Source of the DNA: a virus
Length of the DNA stretch: 22,346 bases
Reading direction: 5' to 3' (one strand)
Virus record (IMG/VR): IMGVR_UViG_3300023184_002441
Span: 1 to 22,346 of that record
The notes beneath the pieces were generated by a model that had not been told where the DNA came from, did no database searches, and was given only the letters and a program-made list of their open reading frames with translations. The position numbers and the translations under genes are program-made. This document shows positions 394-22,346 of this stretch, one piece after another. Position 1 is the first letter of the stretch. The number at the start of each line of letters is the position of its first letter.

Positions 394-710
394 TTCCATT
401 CCTCTCCGTGCTTAAAGAATCTGAGTGCATAATCAACATATTCTAATTCACTTAGATCTGCGTAGAACAACACAGTCTTGTGCCAGCTGGTGACTTGATC
501 GTCAAAGAAGTAATCTATCTCGATAGCATTTTCTTCAACCCAACGATATTCATCAGTGGCGCTAAAGTGTCCTGCACACTGTAAATAGATCTGACGGGTA
601 GTCAACTCGCTGGCGTTCTTAAAATGTATAGCGTGACTGAATAACCTTACACGATGAGGACGTTCATACCGCCATTGGCGCTTTGATGCTGTCATGACTT
701 GTGTATCCAT
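390..710 (-). CDS. Hypothetical protein overlapping the end of thyA
   Basis: I do not recognise this 106-residue protein. It is rich in aromatic and charged residues, with an acidic aromatic core (YRWVEENAIEIDYFFDDQV) and no membrane segment or signal peptide. The first ATG at 710 overlaps thyA by 47 nt. A second in-frame ATG at 695 would reduce the overlap to 32 nt. Neither has a convincing Shine-Dalgarno, so the start is uncertain. Its stop is shared with the start of the secreted protein downstream (ATGA at 390-393). It reads as the third gene of the thyA transcript. Confidence 0.6.
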   Translation of the reverse strand: MDTQVMTASKRQWRYERPHRVRLFSHAIHFKNASELTTRQIYLQCAGHFSATDEYRWVEENAIEIDYFFDDQVTSWHKTVLFYADLSELEYVDYALRFFKHGEEWK

Positions 711-1497
711 CTAATCTAAGGTCCTCCATGGTAAAGGTTAAGATGTCTTGGACATCAGGATTAATCCACAGGGTGGGGAGCGGTAAGGGTTCACGTGCCA
801 ATTGTTCTTTTACCTGCTCCACGTGGTTCAGATATATGTGTGCGTCGCCAAGCACGTGAACGAACTCACCTGCCTCAAGCCCACATACCTGCGCGATCAT
901 ATGTGTGAGCAAGGAATAGGATGCTATGTTAAAGGGCACGCCCAAGAACATATCGCAGGAACGCTGGTACATCTGACAACTTAATTTACCGTCTGCTGAG
1001 ACATAAAACTGTGCGAAACAATGACAAGGCGGTAGAGCCATTTGATCTAACTGCCCTGGGTTCCACGCTGTTAAAATATGTCTACGGCCATACGGGTCTT
1101 TTTTAATGTTGTTGACGAGTTCTACAACTTGATCAACACCACCAAAATCTCTCCATTGGACCCCATATACTCGTCCAAGGTCTCCAATGAATTCAGCATT
1201 AGGTAACCAATACTTGCTGGTAGCATTATCCGTCCAAATAGTTTTCTTGCTAGAGCTGCGAGTGCCATGCAAGATTTCACATAGTCTACGTTCATCACGG
1301 CTACCTTCGAGGAACCAAAGTAGTTCGCTTAGGCAGGCACGGAATGCTAGTTTTTTGGTTGTTACTGCTGGGAATGATTTGGATAAGTCGTAGCGTTGTT
1401 GCATACCAAAAACGCCAATGGTACCCGTGCCTGTACGATCTTCACGCACTTGCCCATTTTCTAAAACGAATTTTAATGCATCAAGATAAGTTTTCAT
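664..1497 (-). CDS. thyA: Thymidylate synthase (ThyA type)
   Basis: Converts dUMP to dTMP using methylenetetrahydrofolate, supplying thymidine for phage DNA. At 277 residues it is close to the 264 of E. coli ThyA and complete. It contains the active-site motif LPPCHCFAQFYV with the nucleophilic Cys, the dUMP/folate motif QRSCDMFLGVPFNIASYSLL, then GLEAGEFVHVLGDAHIYLNH, and ends in the family-typical IKAPMAV. Residues 74-98 (LHGT...KTIWTDNA) match the small-domain insertion of the bacterial form. DHFR lies immediately upstream and regenerates tetrahydrofolate. Its own sigma-70-like promoter lies in the 37-nt gap after the DHFR gene, with the ATG only 6 nt past the -10 box and no Shine-Dalgarno, so the mRNA is predicted to be leaderless. 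Confidence 0.97.
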   Translation of the reverse strand: MKTYLDALKFVLENGQVREDRTGTGTIGVFGMQQRYDLSKSFPAVTTKKLAFRACLSELLWFLEGSRDERRLCEILHGTRSSSKKTIWTDNATSKYWLPNAEFIGDLGRVYGVQWRDFGGVDQVVELVNNIKKDPYGRRHILTAWNPGQLDQMALPPCHCFAQFYVSADGKLSCQMYQRSCDMFLGVPFNIASYSLLTHMIAQVCGLEAGEFVHVLGDAHIYLNHVEQVKEQLAREPLPLPTLWINPDVQDILTFTMEDLRLDGYTSHDSIKAPMAV

Positions 1498-1534: not shown

Positions 1535-2032
1535 CTAAAACAGCACACGATTCCAAATTTCATAGGTGCAGTTGTTACCAGGACGAACACCACTGATGCG
1601 GAAACATGCTAGATAACGTTCTAGATCGATACGAGTATCAGCAAACCATGCTCCTTTCATGCGTGTTAAATAAACACGTTCAACGATAGGTTCAGTGGCA
1701 TCGTATAACTGACGACCACCAATGATGAACACGTCTTGTTTTGGATTTTGTTTTTGGATCTGTTTGACATTATTTACTACATCACTAGGAATCCAACGTA
1801 CTAGGTGTTGGTATTCTTTATCTACATGACGACTGCTGACAACATAATTAACGCGATTAGGTAGTGGTTTGGGCATCTTTGGGTCATCCCAGGTATTACG
1901 TCCCATGACTACGATTTGGTTCTCAGTGTGTTCTTTAAACCAAATCATGTCTTGTGTATGTTTGGGCCAGGGCAAGGTACCTCTATTGCCTATTCCGCCT
2001 AAGTTGGTTGAAGCTAATATGCTACAAATCAT
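1535..2032 (-). CDS. folA: Dihydrofolate reductase
   Basis: Reduces dihydrofolate to tetrahydrofolate with NADPH, recycling the folate oxidised by ThyA. At 165 residues it is the usual length (E. coli 159). Visible motifs are the N-terminal strand and Met20-type loop (GGIGNRGTLPW), catalytic Asp28 in TQDMIWFKEHT, the NADPH-binding VVMGRNTWDD, and the second cofactor motif FIIGGRQLYD. The start overlaps the previous stop as ATGA, with an upstream AAAGG partly within the preceding gene. The DHFR-ThyA pair is a common T4-like phage nucleotide module, here in the order folA then thyA with an extra promoter between them. Confidence 0.95.
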   Translation of the reverse strand: MICSILASTNLGGIGNRGTLPWPKHTQDMIWFKEHTENQIVVMGRNTWDDPKMPKPLPNRVNYVVSSRHVDKEYQHLVRWIPSDVVNNVKQIQKQNPKQDVFIIGGRQLYDATEPIVERVYLTRMKGAWFADTRIDLERYLACFRISGVRPGNNCTYEIWNRVLF

Positions 2033-4950: not shown

Positions 4951-5961
4951 ATGCCTAAATTTTGTTCATCCCCATTTGATACCATAAGCATTCATGCAAA
5001 TGGTGATATATCATCATGTTTCTGTGCCGGTTGGCATACATTCCGAGAAAAAACGGGCAGTAATATGGGTAATATAATCGAAACCCCACTTACAGAAATA
5101 TTTTCTAATCAGAGTTTTGGTATATTCAGAGATTCGATCGTTGATCAATCTTTTCGATTCTGTCGTAAAGATGAATGTGCTAAATTATGGAATTTGGATC
5201 AAGTTGATGATTTAAAAACAGTTGTCAAGCATACAAGATTACCAACCAAAATGAATGTCCAAATTGAAAAGAATTGTAATCTTAAATGTGGTAGCTGTAG
5301 AAACAGTTTGATTTGGAGTAAAGAAGTAAATCCTCAAGTTGAAAAAATATTAAATACCCTAATAGAAGACTATCAAGATTTTGATCAACCAGTGTGGTTT
5401 CAATGCGATGGATTAGGTGATGTTTTTGCTAGTTCAGCGTATCAAAATTTCTTCAAAAGTGAAAATCTACCAAAATGCTTTCAATTTAACATAACTTCAA
5501 ATGGTAATTTAATTACGAAAAACCTTGACCTATTAGAAAAAATTAAAGATCAAATATTCAGTGTATGTATTAGTTTCGATGCTGCTACTCCAGAGACTTA
5601 TAAAATTATACGTGGTGGTAAGTTTGAATTAATAATCGATGGTGTAAAGGCTATGAAGAAAATGGGTATCTATAGAGTTAATACATCATTTGTGGTACAA
5701 AAGAAAAACTATCTTGAAGTATTAGATCATTATAACATGTGTAAAGAATTGGATATTAATTATTCTGGATTATCTAAAATAGATCGTTGGGGTCATATGA
5801 GTGATGTGTGGTGGGAGGAAAATCGGCTCGATGACAATCCTACAATAGATTACGATTTTTTAATACATGCTCTAAAAACTATTAAACAAGACCCAAAATT
5901 TGGATTGTGTGGCGGATTAGAAAATCTTATCGCTACTAAATCTACATCCATTTCAAATTAA
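4951..5961 (+). CDS. Radical SAM protein with N-terminal SPASM-like cysteines
   Basis: The only plus-strand gene, 336 residues. The radical SAM cluster motif is CNLKCGSC (Cys109, 113, 116), unusually far from the N-terminus. It follows an N-terminal Cys-rich segment (Cys5, 23, 25, 71, 76) whose pattern C-x2-PF...NGD...C resembles the SPASM domain that normally sits at the C-terminus. Downstream parts fit the partial TIM barrel: a CDGLGD segment where GGEP would be, then TSNGN, SFDAATPETYKIIRGG and the following strand. Family members bind a 4Fe-4S cluster and S-adenosylmethionine; the substrate is unknown. The gene is visibly more AT-rich than its neighbours. It splits the VWA and MoxR genes and overlaps the convergent gene by 20 nt at its 3' end, consistent with late acquisition. 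Confidence 0.85.
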   Translation: MPKFCSSPFDTISIHANGDISSCFCAGWHTFREKTGSNMGNIIETPLTEIFSNQSFGIFRDSIVDQSFRFCRKDECAKLWNLDQVDDLKTVVKHTRLPTKMNVQIEKNCNLKCGSCRNSLIWSKEVNPQVEKILNTLIEDYQDFDQPVWFQCDGLGDVFASSAYQNFFKSENLPKCFQFNITSNGNLITKNLDLLEKIKDQIFSVCISFDAATPETYKIIRGGKFELIIDGVKAMKKMGIYRVNTSFVVQKKNYLEVLDHYNMCKELDINYSGLSKIDRWGHMSDVWWEENRLDDNPTIDYDFLIHALKTIKQDPKFGLCGGLENLIATKSTSISN

Positions 5962-12586: not shown

Positions 12587-13135
12587 CTATCTATAAAATA
12601 CACTGCGGCTCTTAGGAGTTTCCCACCAATCAATGCGGTCAACGGTTACGTTTAACTTACTCATTTTTACTTCTACCAGATCTGCCATCCAGCTAGATAG
12701 GTTTTCACTTGTTGGTACAAAGTCTACAATTAGAAATCCTTCAAAGTATTCATACTCTGGTGTATCTTGTTTGATACCATCTAAACGAACATTCCACCCT
12801 GCTATGTGAGTTGTTTCTGGAACATACACTGGTAATAATACTTTATCGCCAATCAACTGACTGTATAACGGATCATTCTTGTCAATAACAAACTGATGAT
12901 CAATATACGTGTTGATCCACTTCTTCAACCATTCCAAGTGACGGAAGTCTGTTACCATACCAGTGGGATCTAAATCACCTGTTGGGCTCTTAAGATATAC
13001 CTGCATCTTACCTTCATGTCCATGTAGGTGACGACAAGCACACTTCAAGTCTGCCGCGTATTCACCATTTAGTTTCTGTGTCCAAACTCTGTGTCCATAA
13101 CAGAATTCAAATGTTTTATCAATTATATGTGCCAT
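12587..13135 (-). CDS. queD: QueD-like 6-carboxytetrahydropterin synthase
   Basis: A 182-residue member of the PTPS/QueD T-fold family. QueD converts dihydroneopterin triphosphate to 6-carboxytetrahydropterin on the way to preQ0. Zinc ligands are His15 (YGHRVW) and His38/His40 (HLHGH). The catalytic Cys34 sits in the C-x3-HGH motif, followed by TGMVTDFRHLEWLKKWI and YIDHQF with the catalytic His. PTSENLSSWM and WWETPKSRSVFY complete the fold. It is about 60 residues longer than E. coli QueD because of an insertion between the DH motif and PTSE. The frame is open to 13174, but the ATG at 13135 has AGGA 6 nt upstream and follows the QueF-like stop by 1 nt. Confidence 0.92.
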   Translation of the reverse strand: MAHIIDKTFEFCYGHRVWTQKLNGEYAADLKCACRHLHGHEGKMQVYLKSPTGDLDPTGMVTDFRHLEWLKKWINTYIDHQFVIDKNDPLYSQLIGDKVLLPVYVPETTHIAGWNVRLDGIKQDTPEYEYFEGFLIVDFVPTSENLSSWMADLVEVKMSKLNVTVDRIDWWETPKSRSVFYR

Positions 13136-13136
13136 A

Positions 13137-13541
13137 TTAATCCTTGTGATGTTGCCAAAGTTGATCACTGCCACCTAGATGACCCCAATCACTGTCTACT
13201 ATCATTCTACTGCTGATTCCGCCTCTAGGACGATATTCAATTTCTATACGGATACGATCTGGTTCGTAAACTGCTTTAAGATCTTTATACATTACATCTA
13301 AAGCACGTTCATAACTCAGACGTGTATCTCGATATTGGAATATGTATTGCTTAAGACTTTTAAGTTCAATAGTCTTGTCCTTGCCATAAAACCAAATAGT
13401 AACATCACCAAAGTCTGGCTGATTAGCACCGCCCAAGAATGTAAATTCTGGGATATTAATACGTTGTTCATATCCACGTGCGGCATTAGGTAGACTTTTT
13501 AATATGCTACTGTCTATACTGTCCCAAAGTTTCTTTTCCAT
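13137..13541 (-). CDS. QueF-like T-fold protein lacking the catalytic cysteine
   Basis: A 134-residue protein clearly related to type I QueF (preQ0 nitrile reductase). It has IPEFTFLG, QPDFGDVTIWF (Asp43), the NADPH-site-like ELKSLK (59-64), QYIFQYR, Glu78, and the PRGGIS motif near the end. In QueF the segment before QPDF carries the nucleophilic Cys (CPxTGQPDF). Here it reads LGGANQPDF: the Cys is gone and one residue is deleted. The His next to the substrate-binding Glu is Tyr (SYER). It therefore should not reduce preQ0 by the known thioimide route; it may bind a deazaguanine or do another reaction. It is next to queD, with TAA and ATG abutting on both sides. The ATG is preceded by AGGA. 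Confidence 0.85.
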   Translation of the reverse strand: MEKKLWDSIDSSILKSLPNAARGYEQRINIPEFTFLGGANQPDFGDVTIWFYGKDKTIELKSLKQYIFQYRDTRLSYERALDVMYKDLKAVYEPDRIRIEIEYRPRGGISSRMIVDSDWGHLGGSDQLWQHHKD

Positions 13542-14403: not shown

Positions 14404-15483
14404 CTAATTTATTTTCTTTGGAAAAAATATTTTTTTTGTTGTGGCTTTTATTGAGGTGCATTGACCGCCTTCAGAACAGAATCTGCACTGTGCAATTGGA
14501 TCAGTAATAATACCGAACCAAGCTGTTAATTCTTCTTCTGACATATCAAGCGTTGCCGGTTGATAATTTTTCAATATTGCTAAATCAACCTCATTCAGAT
14601 CAACATTAAATTGCTTTTGGAATTCCTCAAAATGCCCCGCAGTAGCACATTTATGTATTTTTCCATTATAAAATTCATGGCAGAAGCGTTGAAGACACAC
14701 ATCATGTGCCAGACTAGGATCGCTCTGATGCCAGTTAAATCCTGATTGATCTTCTTTAGGTATCAATGGACCCGGCGCGAACTCATGAGCTAATCTTACT
14801 ATAACTATTACCCCGTTTGAATCGACGATCTTCCATCCCCTGTTGCTATTTGTTATTATAGTTGGTGATACATGGTGGCGGTGTATACATTCTTCTTTAA
14901 TCCAGTCTGGTAAAGAGTCCCAATCATTGATCGAATTTAAATCAGGCCAATCATCACCTCGTATTCTCTGATAACTATTTTTAAGTTCTATTTCGACTTT
15001 TTCTGATTCATCTTCTGTCAGATAGTCTTCGGCATGCGGCCATGTCCTATGGTTTATATACTTAATTGTAGTTGGACCTTCAATCCAATCATTTATTTTT
15101 TTAAATAAAAAGTCAATGGTATCAGGATTATGATGGCTTATTTCTAACCAATGTTTTCCGTTTGAATTCTTTAAGATATCGTAGAATTTCTTATTTTTCT
15201 TACTTAATGCATATCCATTAGATGTTATCTTCCCTTTAGCGTTTGGCCAAAGATCTGCGATTCCAGTAAACCAATCTAGTACAGTGGGATTAAGTAAAGG
15301 TTCACCACCAAGTATATCAAAATAATCTAAACTAATTTTTTTTGACCATTCTATATAATAATCACGATGATCTTCCCATAAACTATGCCCTGAGAAATTA
15401 TAATTACTCATGGTCTGACAATGAGTACAATTTAAATTACATTGATTAGTGATATGAAAAGCTAAAACTGGGGTATGTATCAT
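14404..15483 (-). CDS. Radical SAM protein with C-terminal SPASM-like cluster domain
   Basis: A 359-residue radical SAM enzyme. The cluster motif CNLNCTHC is at Cys15, 19 and 22, FDILGGEPLLNP (GGEP 59-62) binds S-adenosylmethionine, and ITSNGYAL follows. The C-terminal third has two groups of Cys (CLQRFCHEF...KC and CRFCSEGGQC) resembling a SPASM/twitch auxiliary-cluster domain. Such enzymes often modify peptides or proteins; the substrate here is unknown and no obvious precursor peptide is adjacent. The gene is AT-rich compared with flanking genes. The start overlaps the 5' nuclease stop as ATGA, so it has been fitted into the operon. It differs from QueE and from the plus-strand radical SAM protein. 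Confidence 0.87.
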   Translation of the reverse strand: MIHTPVLAFHITNQCNLNCTHCQTMSNYNFSGHSLWEDHRDYYIEWSKKISLDYFDILGGEPLLNPTVLDWFTGIADLWPNAKGKITSNGYALSKKNKKFYDILKNSNGKHWLEISHHNPDTIDFLFKKINDWIEGPTTIKYINHRTWPHAEDYLTEDESEKVEIELKNSYQRIRGDDWPDLNSINDWDSLPDWIKEECIHRHHVSPTIITNSNRGWKIVDSNGVIVIVRLAHEFAPGPLIPKEDQSGFNWHQSDPSLAHDVCLQRFCHEFYNGKIHKCATAGHFEEFQKQFNVDLNEVDLAILKNYQPATLDMSEEELTAWFGIITDPIAQCRFCSEGGQCTSIKATTKKIFFPKKIN

Positions 15484-16888: not shown

Positions 16889-17986
16889 TTATTCCTTGAA
16901 TAAATCTAATTCTTCCCACGGTAAATTATCTTTACCAAAATGTCCGTAGTTAGTTGTACGACTGTAGATTGGGCGGAACAGATCAAATCTATTAATAATA
17001 CCTCTAGGAGTTAGATCTACATTAGTAATTATCCATTTAGTAAGCTCACTATTATTTCCGTCACTGTCAACGTAAACACTCATTGGTTGTTCTACACCAA
17101 TAGCATAAGCAAGTTGAACAGTAGCATATGATGCCTTGCCATTGGCTACAATGTTCTTAGCAAGATAACGGGCCATATACGCCGCTGAACGATCTACCTT
17201 AGTAGGATCCTTGCCTGAGAATGCACCGCCACCGTGTGGGCAACTACCACCGTAGGTATCAACAATAATCTTACGTCCTGTTAGGCCAGTGTCACCATCT
17301 GGTCCACCAATGACAAAACGTCCAGTTGGATTGATTAAAAACTCAGTGTCAGTTTTAATAAGTTCTACAGGTAAGATAGTTCTAATAATGTTTTCTACGT
17401 TAGCACGTACAGTCTCAATATGTGTGTCTTCTGTATGTTGAGTTGAACATACAATCTTAGTAGCGTGACTAAGTGAATGATCATCGTTAAACTTTAATGT
17501 CACTTGTGATTTAGCATCAGGACCTAACCAGGTAGCACCATCTTTGCGTAATTTTGTTAATGCTTGAACAATCTTATGACTGTAGTAGATAGTTGGTGGC
17601 ATATAGTTGGGTGTTTTATTAGTAGCATACCCAAACATAAGTCCTTGGTCACCAGCACCAAACGTGTCTGTACCTAGGGCGATGTCTGCACTTTGTCCAT
17701 GCATGAGATTTTTAATGTCCACAGTTTCCCAATGGAATCCATCTTGCTCATAGCCGATATCACGTATGACACGACGCACAGCATTCTCAACTTCCTGATG
17801 ATTGTAGATACCTTTGTATTCACCTGCTAGGATAACTTGATTAGTTGTTACCAATGTTTCACATGCGCAACGATAGGCAGTATTTCCCTCACGCATCATC
17901 AAATCTAAAACAGCATCACTGATAGCATCTGCTACCTTATCTGGATGTCCCTCACTGACACTTTCACTTGTAAACAAATAACTCAT
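16889..17986 (-). CDS. metK: S-adenosylmethionine synthetase
   Basis: Makes S-adenosylmethionine from methionine and ATP. At 365 residues it is slightly shorter than E. coli MetK (384) but complete: FTSESVSEGHPDKVADAISD (metal and ATP site), GAGDQGLMFGYA, FINPTGRFVIGGPDGDTGLTGRK and GGGAFSGKDPTKVDRSAAY are all intact. GGGG lies 6 nt before the ATG, and the start overlaps the DUF2061 gene by 4 nt. It shares an operon with queE and sits upstream of another radical SAM gene, so it may raise S-adenosylmethionine for these enzymes or for DNA methylation during infection. Phage-borne metK is known but uncommon. Confidence 0.96.
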   Translation of the reverse strand: MSYLFTSESVSEGHPDKVADAISDAVLDLMMREGNTAYRCACETLVTTNQVILAGEYKGIYNHQEVENAVRRVIRDIGYEQDGFHWETVDIKNLMHGQSADIALGTDTFGAGDQGLMFGYATNKTPNYMPPTIYYSHKIVQALTKLRKDGATWLGPDAKSQVTLKFNDDHSLSHATKIVCSTQHTEDTHIETVRANVENIIRTILPVELIKTDTEFLINPTGRFVIGGPDGDTGLTGRKIIVDTYGGSCPHGGGAFSGKDPTKVDRSAAYMARYLAKNIVANGKASYATVQLAYAIGVEQPMSVYVDSDGNNSELTKWIITNVDLTPRGIINRFDLFRPIYSRTTNYGHFGKDNLPWEELDLFKE

Positions 17987-18195
17987 TCAGTTCCCCATTT
18001 AATTTTTAACCATATACGTTCGTGTATATAGTAATCAATACTCAATAATAGATGTAAGGTCGTAGCAAATCCTGTCGATTTTGCGATGTCCCCTAGTATC
18101 AACCAAGTCCAAAATATAGTAAATAACCAAGCGGTTAATCTATATGTTATCATACGAACTATGGTTCGTTTTTGTGTTTCTTTTACTTGCCCCAT
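17983..18195 (-). CDS. DUF2061 small membrane protein
   Basis: A 70-residue protein: a basic N-terminus (KETQKRTIVRMITYRL), one or two hydrophobic segments (about 18-35 and 43-55), and the signature YYIHERIWLKIKWG at the C-terminus. This matches DUF2061, a family of unknown function in bacteria and phages. An in-frame ATG at 18207 also exists, but the one at 18195 has GGGG 6 nt upstream and gives the usual family N-terminus. It overlaps queE by 13 nt and metK by 4 nt. Confidence 0.82.
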   Translation of the reverse strand: MGQVKETQKRTIVRMITYRLTAWLFTIFWTWLILGDIAKSTGFATTLHLLLSIDYYIHERIWLKIKWGTE

Positions 18196-19037
18196 GAATT
18201 TCCCCATAAGTCCACATGTAATCTCGGACTATAATAATATCCACGACGCATAGCTTCATCAGCTACATTAAACTTGTTACCATCGTAGACTTTAACCACC
18301 CCGCCTACTGGCATAATGTATATAACACCTTTGAATTTAGCCCGCCTGTATTCTGATACTGCACTATCTACTTCATCAAAGTCACTGGGGTTCTCAACTA
18401 CAAACTTGAGATATGTTGTACCAACACGCTCATAGCTTTTAACAATTTCAGGTTTAATTGCGTCCGCCCACTTCTCACCACTTGCACTTAGTTTAGCACT
18501 GACTGAGAATGTAATCTCACGGCTACCACGATTCCATAGTTTCAAATACTTGGCAAAATCTTCATGTAGTTCTTGAGTACCATTCGTTTCAAACGTTAAG
18601 TTCTTTAAGTTATACATATCCTTATGTGATAATAAATCTGGATAAGCACGTTGCCAACCCAACAATGGCTCTCCACCTGTGATAACCAAATGGGTATCAT
18701 TACCATTGGGCATGATCCAACTGTTGCTAGGCACTAGATCTAGCATACGCTTAACCACAGCATCAATTTCTAATAATGGACTGAAGTTCTTAAAACGAGG
18801 ATCCCAGCTCGCATAACTATCACATCCTGTGTTTACTAACGGTAAGTCTTCATATATACGATATTTTGTAGGATCAATAAACTCACGTTCTGTACTCATC
18901 TGAGTACGATCCTTCATACCAAACCCACCGCAGGTAAAGTTACAACCAAACGTTCTTAAGAAAACACTAGGTACACCAATAAAGCGTCCTTCGCCTTGTG
19001 CTGAATAGAATATTTCACTGACTTTAAGTTTACTCAT
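18183..19037 (-). CDS. queE: QueE-like 7-carboxy-7-deazaguanine synthase with unusual cluster motif
   Basis: A 284-residue radical SAM protein that should form the 7-deazaguanine ring from carboxytetrahydropterin. It opens EIFYSAQGEG with GVPSVFLRTFGCNFTC as QueE does. LVITGGEPLLGWQ, LTFETNGTQ and FSVSAKLSASGEKW follow. The normal CX3CX2C cluster motif is altered: Cys32 and Cys36 are present, but the third position is Phe39. The next Cys is Cys72 in GCDSYASWDPRF, which may supply the third ligand (CX3CX35C). I recall this arrangement from other T4-like marine phages, so it looks like a phage subfamily, not decay. The start overlaps the gene upstream as ATGA. MetK is two genes downstream. Confidence 0.9.
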   Translation of the reverse strand: MSKLKVSEIFYSAQGEGRFIGVPSVFLRTFGCNFTCGGFGMKDRTQMSTEREFIDPTKYRIYEDLPLVNTGCDSYASWDPRFKNFSPLLEIDAVVKRMLDLVPSNSWIMPNGNDTHLVITGGEPLLGWQRAYPDLLSHKDMYNLKNLTFETNGTQELHEDFAKYLKLWNRGSREITFSVSAKLSASGEKWADAIKPEIVKSYERVGTTYLKFVVENPSDFDEVDSAVSEYRRAKFKGVIYIMPVGGVVKVYDGNKFNVADEAMRRGYYYSPRLHVDLWGNSWGK

Positions 19038-19259: not shown

Positions 19260-19805
19260 CTATCTCTCCCATGGATAAACAATCCAAACATCTTCTTCGG
19301 CTTTGTTTATTTCTACAGCACTGTAGTCGACCTTGCGACTAAACTTGCTGCTTAGGTTATCGAATAGCACAGCAAAGCGTACATTATTACCCCAGATGTC
19401 TGCCCAGGCCGGATCGTTGGGTAAATTAATACCTTGCCAATCTTCAACGATCCAATCTAGTGTAGCACCTGTATCATTGATGTCATCTAAGATCAAGATG
19501 TTTTTACGTAGCTCAGGATCACTGGTTGGTTCGCCTGCTGGCCTAGGCACGCTACTAGCACTTAAATATCCAAATGCATCTTCTGCCATCCAGCAGTTGC
19601 TTTCGCCGCCTTCACCGTCACGTAGAGCTACCTTTAGTGTTTCCATTGGAATATCCAACATATGACTCATATATACCGCAGGAACAAGTCCTCCGCGGGT
19701 AAGTCCAACGATGTAGTCCGGACGCCAATTGTCCTTATACATCTGGTATGAGATTTTATTAACGTATTCACAGATCTGTTGATCATCTACATATAATTTT
19801 TTCAC
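19260..19805 (-). CDS. Phosphoribosyltransferase
   Basis: A 181-residue type I phosphoribosyltransferase. The PRPP-binding loop is NILILDDINDTGATLD (about 105-120), preceded by DYIVGLTRGGLVPAVYMSHML with the usual R-G-G pyrophosphate loop, and it ends VDYSAVEINKAEEDVWIVYPWER. The layout is closest to xanthine-guanine/hypoxanthine-type enzymes, so a purine base is the likely acceptor; the exact base cannot be read from sequence. Because it is two genes upstream of queE, a 7-deazapurine base is an attractive but unproven substrate. The start is GTG at 19805 with AAAGGA 5 nt upstream, inside the end of the NTF2-like gene. Confidence 0.87.
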   Translation of the reverse strand: MKKLYVDDQQICEYVNKISYQMYKDNWRPDYIVGLTRGGLVPAVYMSHMLDIPMETLKVALRDGEGGESNCWMAEDAFGYLSASSVPRPAGEPTSDPELRKNILILDDINDTGATLDWIVEDWQGINLPNDPAWADIWGNNVRFAVLFDNLSSKFSRKVDYSAVEINKAEEDVWIVYPWER

Positions 19806-20135: not shown

Positions 20136-22346
20136 TTAAAACTCCTTGTTAAGTGCAAAGCCAATCTGTTGATTAGTTACGCCTGCTTGATTAAGATAGT
20201 TCATCTGATGCTCACCATAGGTAATCAAGTTCAATGTATTAGTTTTGTACTTGTAGTACACTCCCATGTCATACTGATTTACAGTTGGAGTAATGCTTAC
20301 AGTTGAACGATCATAGGCAATAGTGCCATTCGCATAGTAACCAATTGGTACGCTAACATCAACAGTACCTTTGCTTACAGTCACTGGTTGACTTACTGTA
20401 GCCCCAACGCTATGTTTCTCTTTGGTATAGTCCACGCCCATGTTCCAGCTGTATGATTGTGTAGCACCTACATTAGTAATTAACCCTGTGTTCTGTAGAT
20501 TAGCCTGAGTATAACCTAACCATGCACTACCAAATAAGCTCAAGTTTTTATTTAAGTTATATGCACCAGTGAAGTTCATAAACTGCGTATAACTACCACT
20601 AACTTCGCCCATCATACCTGAGATCTGATTTCCCATCCAAGCCTTACGTTCGTTTAACATGCCAACGCCTAGACGATAGTTTGTTTTATCGTTTAGTTTA
20701 GTAGTATAACCCATCTCTACCAGACCTGTTTGAGTGTAGTCATTCATTGACATTTTAACATCATAATTTCCTGCTGTGACTTTACCACCAGCAGTAAAGT
20801 AGTTTAACTTGTTATAAGGATTGTAGTCTTCATAGAAGTTAGCCTTGCTAATAGGGTTAAAATTACCTGCGGCTCTTTTAGCATTAGCTGACGATTTCAT
20901 GTTAACATAATAATCACGACCAAAGTCATCTGTTACCATAACGTTACTCAATGAACTGAGTGTGGCTAGCCCACCTGATGTACTAGTCGAGAACCCGCCA
21001 CTGAGTGCTGTTTTAACACCATAGCGACCATCAGTAGGAATGCCTACTACACCGTATGGTCGAGTCGCTTTTTCTAAATCTAATAGACCAGCACCCATGA
21101 CATTTGGGTCATAGTTGACTAGATCTTTATTAGCGGTTGCAGTTAATAATTTAACAATATTACTACCAGTCATCAATGGCCATTGTTGATGGATGATCGC
21201 TACAGCACCCGAAACCACAGCTGCCGCTTCACTGGTACCTGTTGAAATATTATATACATCTGTGCCAGTTTTGCTAGCAGAGAATGCATTACCTGGTGCT
21301 AGGATATAAAAGTCACTCATGCGATAGGTGTCTTTACAAGTACCAGCAACAATATTAAATCCCTGACATAAATGTCCAGCTTGATTACTATAACTAGCAA
21401 TGCTATTAGTGTTGATATCATATGCTCCAACGATTAACATCTGTCCATTTAAGTATAATGTTCCATCTAGACGAGTAGCATAGGCCATTGGCGCAGGATT
21501 TTCCGGATATCTCAATCCACTATTGCCTGCTGAGTTAACGATAACCATTTCACTTGTGCCTAACGCTGATGCCCAGGCTTTCGGATCTTCATTTAAGTAA
21601 AATCCAGTTGCGCGACTTCCAGTGTAATAATTAGTCTTATATGTAGCACTGCTATTGGCCCACGATCCATCTGCTAATTGGTAGAACGTTTTCCTAGAAG
21701 TAGAGTCATATACAGTATTAGCACTGATGTTAGCTACATCGGCACCGATAGTAGTACCCCAAGTAATAGCTTGACGAGCTTGACTGAACCCATAAGATGT
21801 ATTATCAGTTACCTTAGCAATGGCTAACATGGCATCTGGAGCCACACCTGCTACGCCAACGCCATCCCAATTAGCTGCCGCAATACTGGCCATGCTAGTA
21901 CCGTGACCAACTTTATCAGTGATTCCAACCGCTGATCTAACGAAGTCTTTAGTATCAGTGATACTATTTAAAAACTCATTGTGATTGGCATTGATACCGC
22001 TGTCGATGATCAAAATCTTAGACCCTGCGCCTGTGTATCCTCTGCTCCACGCTGAGCTAGCATTGATTACACGTAGATAGTCATCATTGTATTTGCCAGC
22101 ACTGATTCCGTCTGCGGTATATTCTGCCGTGGCAAACGTTGATATATCAATAGTTGGAGAAGTAGCGACTGGTTCGGTTGGGGTAGTTATCACTGTTGGT
22201 GTAGTTACTACCGGAGCAATTACTGTTGGGGCTGTTACCACAGGTGCTGATCCATCAAGCGTTTTACCATAAACAGCTAGATAATCTGCCGCATTTTTAG
22301 CCTGGATAGCAGCATAGTTGGCATCCCATGCCGCCTGAGCCGCCGC
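20136..22346 (-). CDS. Subtilisin-type (S8) serine protease with C-terminal beta-barrel, autotransporter-like; 5' end outside window
   Basis: An open frame continues past the right edge (736 visible residues), so the N-terminus and any signal peptide are missing; a GTG at 22241 is internal. An Ala-rich segment comes first, then a Thr/Pro/Val linker (about 22140-22245). Next is an S8 domain with the full catalytic triad: Asp in ILIIDSGI (codon 22002-22004), His in GHGTSMAS (21903-21905) and Ser in GTSEAAAV (21231-21233), plus the oxyanion Asn in NSAGNSG. After a spacer, the last 240 or so residues alternate polar and hydrophobic strands and end in Phe, as outer-membrane beta-barrels do. This fits a classical autotransporter protease that reaches the cell surface. 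A phage tail or virion protease is the alternative. The NTF2-like gene follows by 1 nt. Confidence 0.82.
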   Translation of the reverse strand, partial: AAAQAAWDANYAAIQAKNAADYLAVYGKTLDGSAPVVTAPTVIAPVVTTPTVITTPTEPVATSPTIDISTFATAEYTADGISAGKYNDDYLRVINASSAWSRGYTGAGSKILIIDSGINANHNEFLNSITDTKDFVRSAVGITDKVGHGTSMASIAAANWDGVGVAGVAPDAMLAIAKVTDNTSYGFSQARQAITWGTTIGADVANISANTVYDSTSRKTFYQLADGSWANSSATYKTNYYTGSRATGFYLNEDPKAWASALGTSEMVIVNSAGNSGLRYPENPAPMAYATRLDGTLYLNGQMLIVGAYDINTNSIASYSNQAGHLCQGFNIVAGTCKDTYRMSDFYILAPGNAFSASKTGTDVYNISTGTSEAAAVVSGAVAIIHQQWPLMTGSNIVKLLTATANKDLVNYDPNVMGAGLLDLEKATRPYGVVGIPTDGRYGVKTALSGGFSTSTSGGLATLSSLSNVMVTDDFGRDYYVNMKSSANAKRAAGNFNPISKANFYEDYNPYNKLNYFTAGGKVTAGNYDVKMSMNDYTQTGLVEMGYTTKLNDKTNYRLGVGMLNERKAWMGNQISGMMGEVSGSYTQFMNFTGAYNLNKNLSLFGSAWLGYTQANLQNTGLITNVGATQSYSWNMGVDYTKEKHSVGATVSQPVTVSKGTVDVSVPIGYYANGTIAYDRSTVSITPTVNQYDMGVYYKYKTNTLNLITYGEHQMNYLNQAGVTNQQIGFALNKEF

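Follow-up and report, generated by a model that had tools for sequence, protein, structure and literature searches.

A QueF-fold protein family without the catalytic cysteine in phages and bacteria, with a possible role in the folate-methionine-SAM cycle

Short QueF, the preQ0 nitrile reductase of Bacillus subtilis (PF14489, TIGR03139), acts through a cysteine that forms a thioimide with preQ0, and its motif ELKSLKxY is the NADPH site. In other T-fold enzymes a conserved glutamate holds a guanine, deazaguanine or pterin by its 2-amino/NH edge. QueF-Like archaeosine synthase (QueF-L) works by a Cys thioimide as well and is not known to have the NADPH motif, and the zinc ligands of GTP cyclohydrolase I (FolE) include a cysteine. 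DpdL is reportedly named for the decarboxylation of CDG, which gives 7-deazaguanine in phage DNA. The DNA of Streptococcus phage Dp-1 and of Halovirus HVTV-1 carries dPreQ1 (PMC6884629).

The window, that is, the whole stretch of 22,346 nucleotides of viral DNA analysed here, encodes a QueF relative that differs from all of these systems. We use the name QueF*, coined here, for the clade of Cys-less QueF relatives to which it belongs. The features of the window that bear on the argument are the following.

664..1497, minus strand: thyA, thymidylate synthase
1535..2032, minus strand: dihydrofolate reductase-like protein
12587..13135, minus strand: queD-like gene (PTPS family), its ATG one base after the QueF* stop
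13137..13541, minus strand: QueF*, a Cys-less QueF-fold protein of 134 aa, from profile, alignment and model evidence
16889..17986, minus strand: metK, SAM synthetase, which lies directly 5' of QueF* in some related phages
18183..19037, minus strand: queE-like radical SAM protein (7-carboxy-7-deazaguanine synthase family)
19260..19805, minus strand: phosphoribosyltransferase near queE, possibly for purine-base salvage

The window protein scored 63.9 bits with the Pfam QueF model PF14489, whose cut-off is 27.3, and fell below the equivalog cut-off of the NCBI preQ(1) synthase model TIGR03139 (78.8 versus 86.9 bits). It aligned across the core with the Bacillus QueF structures 4f8b and 4fgc. In this alignment Gly37 occupies the position of the catalytic cysteine and adjoins a one-residue deletion, while D43, E78 and the NADPH motif (E59-L-K-S-L-K64-x-Y66) are kept; Y77 stands beside E78. 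There are no cysteines anywhere in the 134 residues. When 55 relatives and 36 comparison QueFs were aligned, all 55 relatives had Gly at this position, where 35 of the 36 comparison proteins had Cys, and the residue that follows was missing in the QueF* relatives. The Asp and the Glu were invariant among them, and ELKSLKxY was nearly so. These results bear out an earlier note on this DNA, which described a QueF homologue that had lost its cysteine and one residue while keeping Asp43, Glu78 and a motif like the NADPH site. The same note had treated the replacement of His by Tyr beside Glu78 as a further special change. This substitution is not diagnostic and is rejected as a second catalytic loss, since 24 of the 36 comparison QueFs, a group in which the cysteine is the rule, also have Tyr.

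An AlphaFold2 model computed from the 55-sequence alignment had a pLDDT of 89.7 and a pTM of 0.85, and its closest fold in the PDB was B. subtilis QueF (4fgc; TM about 0.8). The QueF T-fold of the window protein is thus predicted with confidence, and the comparison with Bacillus QueF that had been proposed earlier recovered it. A sequencing error that hides the cysteine, the artefact considered at the outset, is excluded together with gene decay, because the loss is common to 60 phage and 80 bacterial loci (the best 80 of 162) and dN/dS relative to the window was 0.03-0.07 wherever dS could be estimated, which indicates strong purifying selection. On the strength of this selection and of the model, the window gene is predicted to encode a functional QueF-fold protein that lacks the nucleophile of QueF.

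Compared with short QueF, QueF* has the same fold, the Asp, the Glu, the NADPH motif E(S/L)K(S/A)xKxY and the RGG motif in common. It differs in the Gly and the deletion at the Cys position, in invariant residues of its own, including the motif DSDW..GG (D116-S-D-W119...G123-G124 in the window protein), and in a methionine/folate genomic context with SAM-I riboswitch control. The T-fold of the QueF superfamily is also common to QueF* and QueF-L (5jyx), but with the Cys absent and the NADPH motif present QueF* is the reverse of that enzyme. The phage QueFs of Dp-1 and HVTV-1 are about 30-34% identical to it over the QueF core and, unlike QueF*, keep the cysteine and lie in folE/queC/queD/queE clusters. 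FolE shares the T-fold (TM about 0.6-0.7) at a low identity of about 7-16%, and its type of Zn-Cys ligand is missing from the window protein, which has no Cys.

Every family member read from the 60 phage loci of a viral scan lacked the cysteine. Genomes were scanned for bacterial relatives with the phage alignment through two peptide patterns, and the best 80 of 162 were retained, so the bacterial loci are a selected sample. These 80 were about 50-69% identical, all carried [IV]PEFTFLG and had Gly in place of the Cys, and came from Bacteroidota, deltaproteobacterial MAGs, Gammaproteobacteria and one Neomarinimicrobiota MAG. A tree of 91 rows set QueF* apart by a branch with support of 98/92, and in it the phage sequences together with one from a Halieaceae MAG formed a subclade with support of 100/100; finer placement is unsure because some of the comparison rows have very long branches. 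QueF* is rare: among 296 genomes sampled from the phylum of one host it occurred in two, both already known. Weaker matches were found in 157 other genomes of this sample, and 27 of the 28 that were read carry the Cys. By sequence and tree, QueF* appears to be a distinct, monophyletic and mostly bacterial Cys-less QueF family. Two observations stand beside this one. Two Halieaceae-binned contigs (L187 and L188) have a QueF* of phage type; they may have come from phages and been binned into MAGs, or may point to hosts. The phylum sample also contained a separate Cys-less QueF relative outside the QueF* clade (L311, EFTTLGPVNRQPDF, with FYEH).

The neighbours of the bacterial genes were counted by homology to seed proteins, with Pfam used as confirmation. 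A methionine or folate gene lay within 300 nt of QueF* in 37 of the best 80 of 162 loci (metH in 23, thyX in 10, metB/Y with hom in 3 and a pterin-binding protein in 1), compared with 3 of these 80 at a control distance of 3-7 kb. The 37 loci span Bacteroidota, gamma- and deltaproteobacteria and Neomarinimicrobiota, and the arrangement varies with the group. In Bacteroidota QueF* is often placed between the halves of a split MetH, with the homocysteine domain 5' and the part with the pterin-, B12- and activation domains 3'; in some of them MetF then follows downstream, and at least two genomes (L191 and L218) have it within the operon. In Pleionea and other gammaproteobacteria QueF* is divergent from a full-length MetH. 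It comes after ThyX in deltaproteobacterial MAGs and after a pterin-binding protein in Neomarinimicrobiota, and is flanked by a PLP enzyme of Cys/Met metabolism and homoserine dehydrogenase in Niastella and a related Chitinophagaceae genome. The seed-homology searches found Que genes within 7 kb of QueF* in none of the best 80 of 162 bacterial loci.

The regulatory signals agree with this context. An Rfam scan placed SAM-I riboswitches (RF00162) ahead of 16 of the 17 met-type operons tested. These were 13 of 14 metH-type operons of Bacteroidota (L189, L190, L191, L197, L203, L208, L209, L217, L218, L219, L234, L252 and L265, with L211 as the only miss) and all three metB/Y-QueF*-hom operons (L242, L247 and L260). 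The scan detected no preQ1 riboswitch in any locus covered and no RNA family in the phage loci covered.

From these results we conclude that the fold family of QueF* is known and that its function is probably new: a separate, mostly bacterial family in methionine/folate/SAM operons probably does a job that has gone unrecognised. With regard to the job itself, the thioimide route from preQ0 to preQ1 would be closed without the Cys, as the earlier note had argued from the chemistry of QueF, and because the Glu, the Asp and the NADPH motif nevertheless remain, another reaction, which that note had also raised, is the natural reading. We favour, at a probability of roughly 0.55, a reading in which QueF* would be a T-fold protein that binds NADPH and has been recruited to the folate-methionine-SAM cycle, and would not act on preQ0. 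In such a protein the conserved Glu would hold a pterin (a reduced folate being the likeliest) and the NADPH motif would pass a hydride to an electrophilic C=N. Since this target would already be electrophilic, no covalent Cys would be needed. Candidate targets are the N5 iminium of methylene-tetrahydrofolate and oxidised 5-methyl- or quinonoid dihydrofolate. The most specific version, in which QueF* would be a flavin-free NADPH-dependent folate reductase on the QueF T-fold that acts beside MetH and ThyX and that large phages carry with metK and sahH, is tentative. A folate-repair reaction, the reduction of methylene-THF and a non-catalytic role are each possible.

If a folate/methionine role is true, one-carbon metabolism includes a T-fold reductase that has so far been missed and that forms part of a SAM-cycle gene set in large phages. 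We found no paper that ties QueF to metH operons in a literature search of limited scope. Present annotation may also conceal the family: five of ten members tested, bacterial relatives, scored above the TIGR03139 cut-off (87.2-89.9 bits), and such members are liable to be mislabelled as preQ(1) synthase, though all those seen lack the catalytic residue. Many members also lie in methionine operons under SAM control. The bacterial members make the question accessible to direct genetics and enzymology.

A protein without catalysis was also considered. Having lost the nucleophile, and being placed between the halves of MetH or beside ThyX, QueF* could be a folate- or purine-binding partner or regulator, for example of either enzyme. 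The retention of the NADPH motif, the Asp and the Glu by nearly all members argues against such a role, as do the phage genes, which have no MetH or ThyX partner in the sequences seen, and we consider it distinctly unlikely.

Several results count against the folate-methionine reading or narrow it. In 43 of the best 80 of 162 bacterial loci (Chitinophaga, most Marinilabiliaceae and some Flavobacteriales) none of the tested neighbours was found, and in the lineage of the window queD, queE and folE are close by. MetF and QueF* share an operon in at least two genomes (L191 and L218), so QueF* does not just stand in for an absent methylene-THF reductase, and a plain replacement of MetF is weakened. 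Nor does it generally stand in for an absent DHFR: a DHFR was present in 21 of 26 QueF* genomes, so a general replacement of this enzyme is unsupported.

The queuosine genes of the host genomes bear on whether QueF* still handles preQ0, as a preQ1 synthase or a related enzyme, without a covalent Cys. QueA was present in 25 of the 26 QueF* genomes. In three deltaproteobacterial MAGs (G023, G026 and G042), which gave no DHFR match, QueC and QueA were present and QueF* was the sole QueF match; these three MAGs count against the folate-methionine reading and keep a Cys-independent preQ0 role alive. The retained fold, Asp, Glu and NADPH motif, and the members above the NCBI cut-off, are likewise what such an enzyme would have. 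On the other side, the cysteine that forms the thioimide is absent from every member, and the genomic and regulatory context is that of methionine and folate, not of queuosine. In addition, a second, long QueF was found beside QueF* in gammaproteobacterial and Marinilabiliaceae genomes, and it carries the Cys in the gammaproteobacterial genomes read directly. In 11 of the 26 genomes there was no strong QueC match and no second QueF above the cut-off; one MAG (G041) was without QueC, yet had a second QueF. Taken together, these observations make action on preQ0 unlikely.

In the phages, the adjoining queD reported earlier is confirmed, with its ATG at 13135; the GTG start at 13174 chosen by the ORF caller is probably too early. 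The note had also asked whether Cys-less QueFs cluster with queD and queE in other phages. queD lay within 300 nt of QueF* in 10 of 60 distinct phage loci, but metK or sahH were commoner neighbours at that distance (31 of 60). QueF* is directly followed by sahH in five contigs (G004, G005, G008, G010 and G011), and the order metK-QueF*-sahH was seen in two (G006 and G001). Under the folate-methionine reading, phage QueF* would be an auxiliary metabolic gene that accompanies metK, sahH, thyA and DHFR and supports the supply of methyl groups and SAM. The codons of the conserved C-terminus of QueF* (HHKD; window 13133-13160, minus strand) contain AAGGAT, a possible ribosome-binding site for the next gene, which varies among phages and may be queD, sahH or another.

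The earlier note had gone further and proposed an unrecognised step in phage DNA modification. This is not favoured, because the family is mainly cellular and Que neighbours were found in 0 of the best 80 of 162 bacterial loci; it is further weakened by the methionine/folate neighbours, by the SAM-I riboswitches and by a 338-kb phage contig (G002). For the window's own lineage a deazaguanine role deserves consideration, because folE, queD and queE occur there. QueF* might act on CDG, the product of QueD and QueE, for instance by decarboxylating it to 7-deazaguanine for DNA, as reported for DpdL. QueF* has both queD and queE in its vicinity in the window and also in three contigs (G001, G007 and G009). 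These three also have folE, which in the virus of the window may fall outside the fragment, and no queC was found in fragments of the window type. Without the Cys there could be space for a carboxylate, and Asp43 could serve as the acid. Against this, G002, which has a 123-base direct end repeat, keeps QueF* with metK and has no detectable folE, queD, queE, queC, dpdA or TGT-family gene, its queE-family matches being weak radical-SAM ones. No known DpdA family was detected, and the searches with the phage DpdA families phrog_10773 and phrog_887 were empty, but their positive controls were silent too. The bacterial orthologues lack Que neighbours (0 of 80, the best of 162), and phages ACP17 and BUCT-ZZ01 have folE, queD and queE with no QueF-like match among the matches listed. 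Action on CDG is therefore very doubtful.

A 132-aa protein beside folE in Acidovorax phage ACP17, a suspected DpdL, showed no homology to QueF*. Unannotated phrog_10773 proteins lie beside folE/queD/queE in BUCT-ZZ01 (L119:19114-20364) and ACP17 (L125:33532-34806); judged by eye, both look like DNA-guanine transglycosylases, and glycosyltransferase-like genes are near them. A phosphoribosyltransferase near queE, as in the window, is also found in Synechococcus phage BUCT-ZZ01 and Flavobacterium phage immuto, and it might, speculatively, recycle guanine freed by a base exchange of the DpdA type. In the 210-kb related phage contig G001 (C1:205855-206848) an IscU-like gene is followed by one for a 206-aa QueC-like ATP pyrophosphatase with a Cys-rich C-terminal motif. 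The window itself encodes two further radical SAM proteins (4951-5961, plus strand, and 14404-15483, minus strand), one with a SPASM domain, and a subtilisin-like serine protease (20136-22346, minus strand) that resembles an autotransporter peptidase.
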